24,287 nucleotides of DNA, from the IMG/VR virus record IMGVR_UViG_3300021519_000073, positions 1-24,287 of that record; one strand, given 5' to 3'. The notes beneath the pieces are model-generated. The model made no database searches. It saw nothing but the letters and a program-made list of their open reading frames with translations, and was not told the origin of the DNA. A program made the translations under genes and the position numbers. Origin of the DNA: a virus. Numbering within the stretch: position 1 is the first letter of the stretch; each line of letters starts with the position of its first letter. This document shows positions 7,068-16,461 of this stretch, in pieces.

Positions 7068-7075
7068 GGTAAATA
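7068..7075 (+). promoter_or_regulatory. late promoter box of the 7082 structural gene
   Basis: GGTAAATA ends 6 bases before the ATG at 7082. T4-type late transcripts start about 5-7 bases after the box, so this mRNA would have almost no leader. No Shine-Dalgarno site is visible. The divergent minus-strand box at 7034-7041 lies 26 bases away. Confidence 0.6.
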
Positions 7076-13992: not shown

Positions 13993-14000
13993 GCTAAATA
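13993..14000 (+). promoter_or_regulatory. late promoter box of the first tandem paralogue
   Basis: GCTAAATA, a T4-type late box, ends 6 bases before a stem-loop (14007-14019). The gene starts at 14042 after an AGGAG Shine-Dalgarno site at 14028-14032. Confidence 0.75.
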
Positions 14001-14006
14001 TTAGTA

Positions 14007-14019
14007 GGACCTCGAGTCC
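14007..14019 (+). promoter_or_regulatory. predicted 5'-terminal mRNA hairpin, paralogue 1
   Basis: GGAC (14007-14010) pairs with GTCC (14016-14019) around the loop CTCGA. It starts where a late transcript should begin. The homologous leader of the second paralogue has GGGC/GCCC, so one base pair has changed on both sides. Confidence 0.6.
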
Positions 14020-14041
14020 ACATATATAGGAGATTTAAATC

Positions 14042-14482
14042 ATGGCTTCAATTCCATTAGTATCAGGTGGTTCACAACCAGTATTCGCTATTGACACACT
14101 CAATGGCCCACAGTTAGCTGCAAACGTAACATACGCACCAGCTGGCACACCAACAAACTTCGCAGGCCCAGCTTACGATTTCTTCGGTGTAGATTTAGGT
14201 GCTGATCCTTCAGCTCAAGCAGGCGTTAATGGTGCATTGCAAACAATTTTGCAAACAATCCAGCAAACTTGTACAGTTGCTATCTATCAAGTTGCAGCTA
14301 CAGGTAACGCAACAAACTTGAGTTTGGCTATCTACCCACTTGGTGCATATGACGCAACAACATTACAAGCTACTATCCGCTCATTAGGTTCTAATGTTGC
14401 CGGTACAGGCTACAGTGTTGCGGCTGCAAATGTAACTAACGTTGGTTTCCGTTTAGCTACAACAGCTACATCAGCAAGTTAA
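14042..14482 (+). CDS. tandem paralogue 1, probable abundant virion (decoration-like) protein, 146 aa
   Basis: The 146-residue product is rich in Ala, Thr, Gly and Val, nearly free of Lys and Arg, and looks all-beta. It shares its first 44 residues exactly with the next gene, and a 22-residue block (QAGVNGALQTILQTIQQTCTVA in two parts, about 59-80) is also the same. The gene stands alone with its own late promoter, 5' hairpin, good Shine-Dalgarno site and terminator, which suggests high late expression. A small capsid decoration or tail-surface protein is the likeliest role, but I know no named family and no catalytic motif is present. Confidence 0.78.
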   Translation: MASIPLVSGGSQPVFAIDTLNGPQLAANVTYAPAGTPTNFAGPAYDFFGVDLGADPSAQAGVNGALQTILQTIQQTCTVAIYQVAATGNATNLSLAIYPLGAYDATTLQATIRSLGSNVAGTGYSVAAANVTNVGFRLATTATSAS

Positions 14483-14502
14483 TTTTAAAGTTTACTTTAA
14501 AA
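14483..14502 (+). repeat. AT palindrome after paralogue 1
   Basis: TTTTAAAG and CTTTAAAA (8 bp) flank the loop TTTA directly after the stop codon. Nearly the same palindrome follows paralogue 2 at 15043-15062, so the duplicated unit includes the 3' flank. Possibly an mRNA 3'-end element. Confidence 0.6.
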
Positions 14503-14507
14503 ACACT

Positions 14508-14530
14508 AAACCCGCTTAGGCGGGTTTTTT
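14508..14530 (+). terminator. intrinsic terminator after paralogue 1
   Basis: AAACCCGC (14508-14515) pairs with GCGGGTTT (14520-14527 region) around a TTAG loop and runs into a T tract ending at 14530. Confidence 0.9.
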
Positions 14531-14538
14531 GTTATTGC

Positions 14539-14546
14539 ACTAAATA
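14539..14546 (+). promoter_or_regulatory. late promoter box of the second tandem paralogue
   Basis: ACTAAATA lies just after the terminator of paralogue 1 and ends 6 bases before a stem-loop (14553-14565). AGGAG at 14572-14576 precedes the ATG at 14584. Confidence 0.75.
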
Positions 14547-14552
14547 ACAGTA

Positions 14553-14565
14553 GGGCCTCGTGCCC
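14553..14565 (+). promoter_or_regulatory. predicted 5'-terminal mRNA hairpin, paralogue 2
   Basis: GGGC (14553-14556) pairs with GCCC (14562-14565) around the loop CTCGT. Compared with the GGAC/GTCC stem of paralogue 1 this is a compensatory A-U to G-C change. Confidence 0.6.
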
Positions 14566-14583
14566 ACATAAAGGAGAATTAAA

Positions 14584-15042
14584 ATGGCTTCAATTCCATT
14601 AGTATCAGGCGGTTCACAACCGGTATTTGCGATCGATACATTAAACGGTCCACAACTAGCTGCAAACGTAACATACGCACCAGCTGGCACACCAACAAAC
14701 TTTGCTGGACCAGCATTGGACTTTTTTGGTGTTGGCTTTGCTGCTGATCCAAGCGATCAAGCAGGTGTTAACGGTGCATTACAAACAATTTTGCAAACTA
14801 TTCAGCAAACTTGTACAGTAGCGTTTTATCAAGTTGATGCTACAACTGACGCAGTAAACATGAGTGTTGCTACATACCCAGTTGGTGCCTTTGGTGGCAA
14901 TGCTACGGTATCAGCAGCTACATTTGAAGCAGTTATCGTATCATGCGGTTCAAATGTTGCTGGCACAGGCTTTGATGCAACTACAGCTTCGGTAACAGAT
15001 GTTGGTTTCCGTTTGGCTACTTCGGCAACCGATCCAAGCTAA
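14584..15042 (+). CDS. tandem paralogue 2, probable abundant virion (decoration-like) protein, 152 aa
   Basis: The 152-residue product is the duplicate of the gene at 14042, with identical residues 1-44 and a diverged C-terminal half that contains a few extra residues (GGNATVSAATF region). It is more acidic than copy 1 at several places. Codons have drifted where the proteins are identical, except in a 46-base block (14657-14702 against 14115-14160) that is the same at every base. It has its own late promoter, hairpin leader, Shine-Dalgarno site and terminator. The two could form mixed assemblies or differ in surface exposure; role inferred only from expression signals and composition. Confidence 0.78.
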   Translation: MASIPLVSGGSQPVFAIDTLNGPQLAANVTYAPAGTPTNFAGPALDFFGVGFAADPSDQAGVNGALQTILQTIQQTCTVAFYQVDATTDAVNMSVATYPVGAFGGNATVSAATFEAVIVSCGSNVAGTGFDATTASVTDVGFRLATSATDPS

Positions 15043-15062
15043 TTTTAAAGTTTATTTTAAAA
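15043..15062 (+). repeat. AT palindrome after paralogue 2
   Basis: TTTTAAA (15043-15049) pairs with TTTAAAA (15056-15062). It matches the palindrome after paralogue 1 except for one base. Confidence 0.6.
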
Positions 15063-15069
15063 TGTCAAG

Positions 15070-15092
15070 AAGGCACCGCGAGGTGCTTTTTT
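15070..15092 (+). terminator. intrinsic terminator after paralogue 2
   Basis: GCACC (15073-15077) pairs with GGTGC (15082-15086) around a GCGA (GNRA-type) tetraloop, followed by six T (15087-15092). Confidence 0.88.
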
Positions 15093-15111
15093 GTTGACTG
15101 TAATTTATAGA

Positions 15112-15119
15112 CATAAATA
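15112..15119 (+). promoter_or_regulatory. late promoter box of gene 15181
   Basis: CATAAATA ends 5 bases before a GTAGC/GCTAC stem-loop at 15125-15138. The leader then runs about 40 bases, rich in CA, to an AAAGGAG Shine-Dalgarno site at 15166-15172. Confidence 0.72.
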
Positions 15120-15124
15120 TTCTA

Positions 15125-15138
15125 GTAGCAACAGCTAC
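15125..15138 (+). promoter_or_regulatory. predicted 5'-terminal mRNA hairpin of gene 15181
   Basis: GTAGC (15125-15129) pairs with GCTAC (15134-15138) around the loop AACA. It occupies the place of the expected late transcription start, as in the leaders of 14042 and 14584, but its sequence is unrelated. Confidence 0.55.
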
Positions 15139-15180
15139 ACTCATGTTTTACACACACATACACAGAAAGGAGTATATACC

Positions 15181-15405
15181 ATGAGCAAAACACCTTACGA
15201 GATCCGTCTCGATCTACTTAAACTCGCAAAAGACGCAATTTTTGAGCCCGTTTATTGTAAACGCGATTCACTCAAAGACGAGTTTTATTCTAAAATGACC
15301 GATGAGAATAAAGGAACTATTTCTTATCCGACCTTGCCTAGTTTTCCAGGCACCGACGATATCATTGCAGAAGCTGAAAAACTTAATAAGTTTATCAGTC
15401 AGTAA
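15181..15405 (+). CDS. small conserved T4-like phage protein, 74 aa
   Basis: I start the gene at ATG 15181 because a strong AAAGGAG Shine-Dalgarno site lies 8 bases upstream; the frame is open to a TTG at 15091, but that lies in the terminator of the previous gene. The 74-residue product begins MSKTPYEIRLDLLKLAKDA, a start I recall from a small protein conserved in aquatic T4-like phages. It is helical at both ends, with a Pro/Thr-rich middle (residues 46-56). Late promoter, hairpin leader and its own terminator suggest strong late expression. Role unknown. Confidence 0.8.
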   Translation: MSKTPYEIRLDLLKLAKDAIFEPVYCKRDSLKDEFYSKMTDENKGTISYPTLPSFPGTDDIIAEAEKLNKFISQ

Positions 15406-15409
15406 CATT

Positions 15410-15433
15410 AAAACCCACTTCGGTGGGTTTTTT
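15410..15433 (+). terminator. intrinsic terminator after gene 15181
   Basis: AAACCCAC (15411-15418) pairs with GTGGGTTT (15423-15430) around a stable TTCG tetraloop, then TTT. Ends the single-gene unit. Confidence 0.92.
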
Positions 15434-15434
15434 G

Positions 15435-15473
15435 TTAACATTACTTTCTGCCCATGTTATAATGGGTTAAATA
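15435..15473 (+). promoter_or_regulatory. overlapping sigma70-type and late promoters of gene 15481
   Basis: A sigma70 pair TTAACA (15435-15440), 17 bases, TATAAT (15458-15463) would give a leader of about 11 bases. A late box GTTAAATA (15466-15473) ends 7 bases before the ATG at 15481 and would give a leaderless mRNA. No clear Shine-Dalgarno site. Confidence 0.6.
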
Positions 15474-15480
15474 TCGTACC

Positions 15481-15735
15481 ATGACTGTTAGTAAAATTAC
15501 CGAAGTAACCGTATTTGAAAGTCCAGATGGCGGCCGAACAGTATATGCCCGCCGCCCTGGGCAGTCCGTTCGCGAACTATATTCTCAAGATCCGTTGCTA
15601 CAAAAAGAATTAGATGATATTGAACACCAGCGTCGCTGGATGGAAATATTTGGTGCCCGCAACACTAACGAAGGGCTGAATCAATTATGCGAACAAGTTG
15701 AAATTTTATATGAATTGTCAAAAAATCACGAATGA
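15481..15735 (+). CDS. small hypothetical protein, 84 aa
   Basis: The product has 84 residues. The first part is beta-like (ITEVTVFESPDGGRTVYARR, in order), the second a long helix (about 38-82) with many Glu, Gln and Leu residues. No membrane segment or known motif. It has its own double promoter and overlaps the next gene by 4 bases (ATGA). It may be an assembly or scaffold-type small protein, but that is a guess from size and place among virion genes. I do not recognise the family with confidence. Confidence 0.72.
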   Translation: MTVSKITEVTVFESPDGGRTVYARRPGQSVRELYSQDPLLQKELDDIEHQRRWMEIFGARNTNEGLNQLCEQVEILYELSKNHE

Positions 15736-16145
15736 AATTTGCCTGTAAAACTTTCTTTGACATTACTGCCACAGGAGTCACCGGGCATTATAAATCATCA
15801 CGAGTACCATTTAAAGATCGAGCTGACCAGTATATACAAGATGAAATAGACTGGAATCGAGCAAGAAACCAACAAAGAAATTGGGAAACCTTGACCCAAT
15901 TAATTTCTATGCGTACTCAAATATTTGAACTTAAACATCCTACTGAGATTAAAAATTGCTGGCACTTTGAATTTGAAGTTGAGACCCCGGATGTGTTTGG
16001 AACCGCAGAAAATCCTGTAGAAATATTATTAAAAGATACCGCAGGTGTTCCTATGCTGGTAAACTTAGAAAATCTTCCCAATTTAACTCCAATATTAATT
16101 GTTTCTGGCCCCGATCAAAATATTTGGTTTAGCGCATTGCCATAA
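15732..16145 (+). CDS. conserved-looking hypothetical protein, 137 aa
   Basis: The start overlaps the preceding stop (ATGA). The 137-residue product begins MKFACKTFFDITATGVTGHY and contains WNRARNQQRNWETLTQLISMRTQ (two parts of one block, residues about 41-63), which I recall from hypothetical proteins of aquatic T4-like phages. The C-terminal half is beta-rich and ends in a PDQNIWFSALP segment. Size and placement among late genes suggest a virion or assembly role. No signal peptide or membrane segment. Confidence 0.75.
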   Translation: MKFACKTFFDITATGVTGHYKSSRVPFKDRADQYIQDEIDWNRARNQQRNWETLTQLISMRTQIFELKHPTEIKNCWHFEFEVETPDVFGTAENPVEILLKDTAGVPMLVNLENLPNLTPILIVSGPDQNIWFSALP

Positions 16146-16148
16146 ATA
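16141..16148 (+). promoter_or_regulatory. late promoter box of gene 16198
   Basis: CATAAATA overlaps the end of the previous gene and ends 7 bases before a stem-loop at 16156-16177. A weak Shine-Dalgarno site (AAAGAGA) precedes the ATG at 16198. Confidence 0.65.
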
Positions 16149-16155
16149 ATTAATA

Positions 16156-16177
16156 GGTCGGCGTTAATAGCTGAACC
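16156..16177 (+). promoter_or_regulatory. predicted 5'-terminal mRNA hairpin of gene 16198
   Basis: GGTCGGC (16156-16162) pairs with GCTGAACC (16170-16177), with one bulged A and one G-U pair, around the loop GTTAATA. Fourth example of a stem-loop placed at the predicted start of a late mRNA. Confidence 0.5.
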
Positions 16178-16197: not shown

Positions 16198-16461
16198 ATG
16201 GTTGAAGCCACAGATATTGAAAAGAAAAGCCTAGAAGCGCATGTTGAACTCTGCGCCGAAAGATACAATGCACTCGAAGACAAAATGACAGCCATGAATA
16301 CAAGTATTTCGCACCTTTGCGACATGGTACAAGAAGTAAAATCATCTGTTAGTAAGTTAACCGAAAAAAATAATGATAGATTAATTACCTGGGGCATTGG
16401 AATTATTGGATTTTTATCCGCATCAACCATCTATCTAATAACACATTACGTGCTCAAATGA
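16198..16461 (+). CDS. small coiled-coil plus membrane-anchor protein, XhlA-like
   Basis: The 87-residue product has a charged helical N-terminal part (residues about 1-58, with heptad-like leucine and methionine spacing) and one hydrophobic segment near residues 63-84 (WGIGIIGFLSASTIYLITHYV) close to the C-terminus. This layout is that of the XhlA family, small membrane-associated proteins found near phage lysis genes. No lysis enzyme is seen in the window, so a lysis role is only suggested. A tail-associated membrane protein is the alternative. It has a late promoter and hairpin leader and overlaps the next gene by 4 bases. Confidence 0.65.
   Translation: MVEATDIEKKSLEAHVELCAERYNALEDKMTAMNTSISHLCDMVQEVKSSVSKLTEKNNDRLITWGIGIIGFLSASTIYLITHYVLK

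Follow-up and report, generated by a model that had tools for sequence, protein, structure and literature searches.

Several late-promoter-like boxes in the virus record IMGVR_UViG_3300021519_000073 are directly followed by a small stem-loop, which raises the question of whether these hairpins form the very 5' ends of late messages and what they would do there. The window, as the whole analysed stretch is called here, is a 24,287-base IMG/VR phage fragment with T4-type replication genes (helicases, primase), and the nearest cultured relatives of its DnaB-like helicase are jumbo phages such as PA5oct (52% identity). A preliminary description had placed stem-loops 6, 6, 5 and 7 bases after the boxes at 13993, 14539, 15112 and 16141, and all four are present exactly as described. 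When the leaders of relatives were collected and examined for covariation, as had been proposed, covarying stems at a conserved offset were found in three gene families. The comparison supports the view that the stems are conserved RNA structures at the position expected for the start of a T4-type late mRNA.

Late boxes and the predicted start of the message

The boxes were read from the sequence, and all window features given here lie on the plus strand. The first box, GCTAAATA (13993..14000), precedes the stem-loop GGAC-CUCGA-GUCC (14007..14019; arms 14007-14010 and 14016-14019) by a gap of 6. The same gap separates the second, ACTAAATA (14539..14546), from GGGC-CUCGU-GCCC (14553..14565; arms 14553-14556 and 14562-14565). 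These two leaders belong to paralogous genes, and an A-U pair in the first stem is replaced by a G-C pair in the second, as had been noticed. The box CATAAATA occurs twice: at 15112..15119, followed after 5 bases by GUAGC-AACA-GCUAC (15125..15138; arms 15125-15129 and 15134-15138), and at 16141..16148, followed after 7 bases by the bulged stem GGUCGGC...GCUG-A-ACC (16156..16177; arms 16156-16162 and 16170-16177, with the extra A at 16174 or 16175). None of the four stems has a U run on its 3' side, so they do not have the make-up of intrinsic terminators.

A perfect stem at a gap of 5-7 follows 3 of the 10 window boxes against a shuffled mean of 0.84 (P=0.043), in a test that takes perfect stems only and misses the bulged one at 16141. 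The motif TAAATA is enriched in intergenic window DNA, with 7 observed and 1.46 expected. The anticipated excess of stems over shuffled sequence is modest in the window alone and strong across relatives, through offset and covariation. The units at 7068, 10675 and 19628, named earlier as stem-less, indeed carry no stem.

Cryo-electron microscopy of T4 gp55 revealed that this factor recognises adenines at -12, -9 and -8 (PMC7892883). These positions fit TATAAATA only if the box occupies -13 to -6, which makes +1 the sixth base after the box. We therefore infer starts at A14006, A14552, G15125 and T16154, with 1, 1, 0 and 2 unpaired bases before the stem, and the window stems are predicted to begin at +1 to +3 of the late mRNA. 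Of the earlier claim that the hairpin is the very 5' end, the part that holds is that conserved RNA structures sit where such a message should begin, at a position tied to the promoter; the start itself is a prediction from the numbering above. The arrangement is that of a T4-type late unit, with a TATAAATA-like 8-bp box near the gene: TAAATA is kept in every distinct leader of the P family described below and is enriched between genes, and the first two box bases vary. Homologues of gp55 are encoded in three related contigs (G001, G004, G011; E 1e-21 to 2e-23), the window itself being a 24-kb fragment. A PHROG search for the gp45 sliding clamp matched nowhere at all and is hence uninformative on gp45.

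Covariation in three gene families

Relatives of the genes at 14042 (P), 15181 (Q) and 16198 (R) were fetched and their leaders read. All 39 distinct leaders of family P fold, and 35 of them place the stem at exactly offset 6, a position reached by about 10% per offset in shuffled sequence. In 36/39, TA or CA stands directly before the stem, with A at the predicted +1. In a structure-blind MAFFT alignment of 27 leaders, 108/108 cells are paired, both arms have changed in 4/4 pairs and 13 cells carry double changes, where cells count sequences and not independent events; the covariation score was reached by 0/500 shuffles. The stems include several that are unrelated in sequence (GGAC/GTCC, GGTCC/GGACC, GAACC/GGTTC, GAGTC/GACTC, GGATC/GATCC, GAGCAAA/TTTGCTC, TGAATC/GATTCA). 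The distance from stem to AUG has a standard deviation of 3.7 nucleotides (nt) and is looser than that from box to stem.

The window holds two members of this family, P1 (14042..14482, 146 amino acids) and its paralogue P2 (14584..15042, 152 amino acids, 78% identity by alignment), both of unknown function. Each is closed by an intrinsic terminator identified by sequence reading and a terminator test: CCCGC-TTAG-GCGGG-TTTTTT (14511..14530), which makes P1 a monocistronic unit, and GCACC-GCGA-GGTGC-TTTTTT (15073..15092). The P1 protein has no Pfam or PHROG match, and a structure prediction for P (AlphaFold, pLDDT 69.7) found no PDB match and only uncharacterised phage or viral relatives. Searches among cultured phages found no relative of the leaders, of P or of Q; a match to Salicola phage SCTP-2 was rejected as too weak.

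Gene Q (15181..15405, 74 amino acids, MSKTPYEIRL..., function unknown) is likewise followed by a terminator, ACCCAC-TTCG-GTGGGT-TTTTT (15413..15433), found in the same way. For this family, 280 of 301 pattern matches in viral contigs were confirmed, with no match in cultured phages. In 17 leaders, 85/85 cells are paired, 3/5 pairs covary and 12 cells carry double changes (0/500 shuffles). The stem offset is mostly 4-5 (about 30/46 leaders), and the stem-to-AUG spacing is clearly looser than the box spacing (standard deviation 13.3 nt). Between the 5' stem-loop and the Shine-Dalgarno sequence (SD), Q leaders conserve (G)CUCRUGU...ACACACAYACACA (window 15139-15180; L082-L159 leaders), around which the 5' hairpin has been rebuilt in three designs. 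The GUGU and ACAC of these elements could pair with each other. Many Q leaders have TAAGTA in place of TAAATA at the box position (L082, L092, L095, L102-L159), perhaps a variant late box.

Gene R (16198..16461, 87 amino acids) encodes a protein of unknown function with a coiled coil and a C-terminal membrane segment by inspection. Its 24 distinct long leaders place the stem at offset 7 in 16-17 cases; the bulged stems give 84% of cells paired and 13 double-change cells, with the score reached by 0/500 shuffles, so that the evidence from R is weaker than that from P and Q but positive. The standard deviation of the stem-to-AUG spacing is 4.4 nt. Orthologues of R come in two forms. The stem form, to which the window belongs, has 40-55 nt from box to AUG, a stem directly after the box and a weaker SD (AGAGAA) that is largely open in both read-through and late RNA. 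The stem-less form mostly has 17-19 nt from box to AUG and a strong GGAG SD. In the stem-less genes (L227-L304) the late box lies inside a hairpin, AUUUCCAU/AUGGAGAU, which sequesters the ribosome-binding site (RBS) by pairing its upstream arm with the SD; the SD is unpaired at 0.11 in read-through RNA against 0.72 in late RNA. This small membrane-protein-like gene thereby matches the arrangement of T4 e and I-TevI (PMC2988022, PMC3014915). Close orthologues with and without the stem make R genes a natural comparison.

Structured leaders in related phages

In eight large related contigs and the window, 27% of long-leader TAAATA sites carry a stem at +4 to +8; other bands reach 12% and control motifs 11-20%. 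Short plain leaders are common among late genes (90 short leaders, mean z +0.14). A structured leader is more often followed by one gene and then an immediate terminator (17/79 vs 9/111, p=0.010, the orthologues not being independent). Genes with structured leaders comprise P, Q, R, ClpS-like and GIY-YIG or HNH endonuclease-like genes, of which P and Q are one-gene units with their own terminator, and also Hsp20-like, DnaK, GroES, PhoH-like and phasin-like genes, named by eye from sequence.

The Hsp20, DnaK and phasin-like leaders have a common UGCC..GGG bulged stem. A GCC..GGG stem after TAAATA is found at Hsp20-like and DnaK genes of relatives (L163:19298-19744:-, L194:13206-15107:+), and the same arrangement occurs at the Hsp20-like genes of Syn9, P-SSM2 and HTVC008M (L404 + 18959, L422 + 3430, L411 + 11895); this stem is possibly an old, shared leader of chaperone genes. 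When T4, Syn9, P-SSM2 and HTVC008M were pooled, 17/54 long-leader sites, some of them intragenic, had a stem in the +4 to +8 band, compared with about 12% for the other bands, an excess that is suggestive only.

The RNA family freshwater-2 (Rfam RF02980) occurs in 21 of 39 related contigs, in 10 of them above the cut-off. TAAATA stands immediately before its first stem in 17/17 located copies (L427-L443; L186:3996-4072; L108:4291-4365; L149:6470-6546), which identifies this orphan RNA as a late leader. It belongs to the same freshwater phage group and, like the window leaders, has its first stem directly after the box; unlike them, it consists of three stems with conserved motifs and keeps UAUGC...GCGUAG...UAGAAC-like parts. 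The window leaders do not match its covariance model at the gathering score, and the Rfam hits that permissive E-values gave in the window were rejected as chance.

The GIY-YIG and HNH endonuclease-like genes have another leader, a two-tier hairpin after the late box (AGUG, outer stem, CRC, inner stem, CUCUAAYG). Its 14 distinct copies (L183-L189, L198, L199, L217, L114) have 94% of cells paired, 7/10 pairs covarying and 30 double-change cells (0/500 shuffles), and it is not among the Rfam gathering-score matches in the contigs scanned. A 142-kb phage contig also contains a tmRNA gene of the beta-proteobacterial, permuted type (L183:3555-3952:+, 116 bits).

The ClpS-like genes (L306-L385) have a nearly invariant GTAAATACAGT upstream, then a long, perfectly covarying stem after TAAATA. 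Among 595 pairs there are 26 G-U, 0 A-C and 1 other mismatch.

What the stems may do

The reading proposed here, to which about an even chance is given, is that late mRNAs in a T4-like phage clade carry these stem-loops at their 5' terminus, where they would protect the 5' end and lengthen the life of the message. Secondary structure at the 5' end is known to stabilise bacterial mRNA, since both RppH and RNase E require the 5' end to be single-stranded (PMC3997798). Transcription from a gp55-type late box would start about 6 nt past the box, and the message would begin with 0-2 unpaired nt and then a stem of 4-8 bp, largely free in sequence but kept in its pairing. Such simple stems would hide the 5' end, which as a paired end would be a poor substrate for the RppH pyrophosphohydrolase and for the 5'-sensing pocket of RNase E, and we infer a longer half-life from this. 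The SD would be left open downstream, and in P and Q the terminator hairpin would close the 3' end of a one-gene message. In the computed leader folds the stems avoid the SD, which is unpaired at 0.65-0.75 in late transcripts. The near-fixed box spacing, the free stem and loop sequence in P and R and the open SD together suggest a role for the 5' end as such.

The closest known systems are the stabilising 5'-terminal stem-loops of E. coli ompA and papA (Emory 1992; Bouvet and Belasco 1992; Bricker and Belasco 1999, as cited in PMC3997798). As in those cases, and given the predicted start, the phage stems lie within 0-2 nt of the 5' end, depend on pairing and not on sequence, and leave the SD open. 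They differ in serving phage late genes, many unrelated ones per genome, behind a gp55-type promoter, and in being known from sequence alone. The T7 gene 10 leader is a phage message that begins with a 5' stem-loop; it is a single case, depends on a T7 RNA polymerase promoter and has no homology to the leaders described here.

Several observations weigh against 5'-end protection. Genome-wide, the stem enrichment at long-leader boxes is only about twofold, and the P leader box (GC/ACTAAATA) differs from the T4 box TATAAATA. At the ClpS-like genes pairing already sets in at offset 0-2, before the expected +1, so that box and stem do not always mark the 5' end; these genes may use another start site, or their hairpin may belong to a transcript begun farther upstream (an Hsp20-like gene lies just upstream in G001). 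In E. coli, only some 10% of mRNAs respond to the inactivation of RppH (PMC3997798). Conservation in Q leaders and freshwater-2 extends beyond the stem, which would be superfluous in a mere cap. The tail-sheath protein gp18 is an abundant virion protein in T4. In G001, G002, G003 and G011 the gp18 gene follows a late box and a plain leader of 27-32 nt; no box lies within 100 nt of gp23. On the narrower question of virion mRNAs, no virion annotation attaches to P, Q or R, and structured late leaders are also found before chaperone-like, ClpS-like and homing-endonuclease-like genes. Stem presence thus does not track abundant virion proteins, and the suggestion of a stability cap for abundant virion mRNAs finds no support; nor does its corollary that units lacking the stem are expressed at lower levels, given the plain gp18 leaders of four relatives.

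Some leader classes may have a further role, as is suggested by the sequence conserved beyond the stems in Q, freshwater-2, endonuclease and chaperone leaders. The leaders could be translation or protein-recognition elements that hold the ribosome site open (as standby site or insulator) or are recognised by an RNA-binding protein of phage or host, with the 5' position a by-product of short leaders. This account is considered rather unlikely, but several observations favour it: besides the (G)CUCRUGU...ACACACA of Q, the freshwater-2 motifs and the shared chaperone-type stem, the CRC and CUCUAAYG of homing-endonuclease-like leaders are kept, and the hairpin-bearing R leaders have a weaker SD than their hairpin-less orthologues. 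It is opposed by the free drift of loop and stem sequence in P and R and by a box spacing that is near fixed where the start-codon spacing varies. Timing control of the kind documented for T4 e, soc and I-TevI (PMC3014915, PMC2988022), in which read-through RNA sequesters the RBS and the late start removes the upstream arm, fits the stem-less R orthologues, and 17/38 P leaders also lose SD access in read-through RNA. As the explanation of the stems it is improbable: in three of the four window leaders the SD is accessible in read-through RNA (0.76-0.85) as well as in late RNA, Q leaders behave alike in both, and the SD is no pairing partner of the stem. The idea that the late box serves as an RBS-sequestering device was rejected for most window leaders on the same ground and holds for the stem-less R orthologues. 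T4 e, soc, I-TevI and segB share with the present leaders a late box near an RNA hairpin, but there the late start removes the hairpin and here the late message contains it.

A dyad acting in DNA or at initiation, as an operator or in promoter escape, would account for a position directly after the box that always begins near +1. Covarying stems of unrelated sequence are, however, a poor fit for a sequence-specific operator, and departures from Watson-Crick pairing are G-U and not A-C, both in the ClpS-like stems and in the aligned P and Q cores (5 G-U, 0 A-C). These cores were used because forced 5-bp stems on P, Q and R are uninformative, the true stems being 4 bp or bulged. Action at the DNA level is accordingly considered very improbable. 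Chance stems in short leaders, which the window-only test (P=0.04) might still have allowed, are refuted by offset conservation and covariation in three gene families and are given next to no weight.

Whatever its function, a stem-loop kept by matched changes is predicted to open certain late messages in a group of uncultured T4-like freshwater phages, either at the first base or no more than 2-3 bases from it. More tentatively, and with doubt prevailing, this clade and perhaps T4-like phages at large may mark chosen late messages with 5' structured RNAs of several unrelated designs (simple stem, freshwater-2, chaperone, homing-endonuclease). These would add a post-transcriptional layer to the single gp55 promoter and set how strongly each late gene is expressed, with nucleases or an RNA-binding protein as the readers. 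T4 late promoters hardly differ from one another, and how one sigma factor yields very different amounts of late proteins is a question to which a covarying 5' structure would be a concrete and testable answer. Two further RNAs are also assigned to predicted late-promoter start sites: the Rfam orphan freshwater-2 and the new leader of homing-endonuclease genes.

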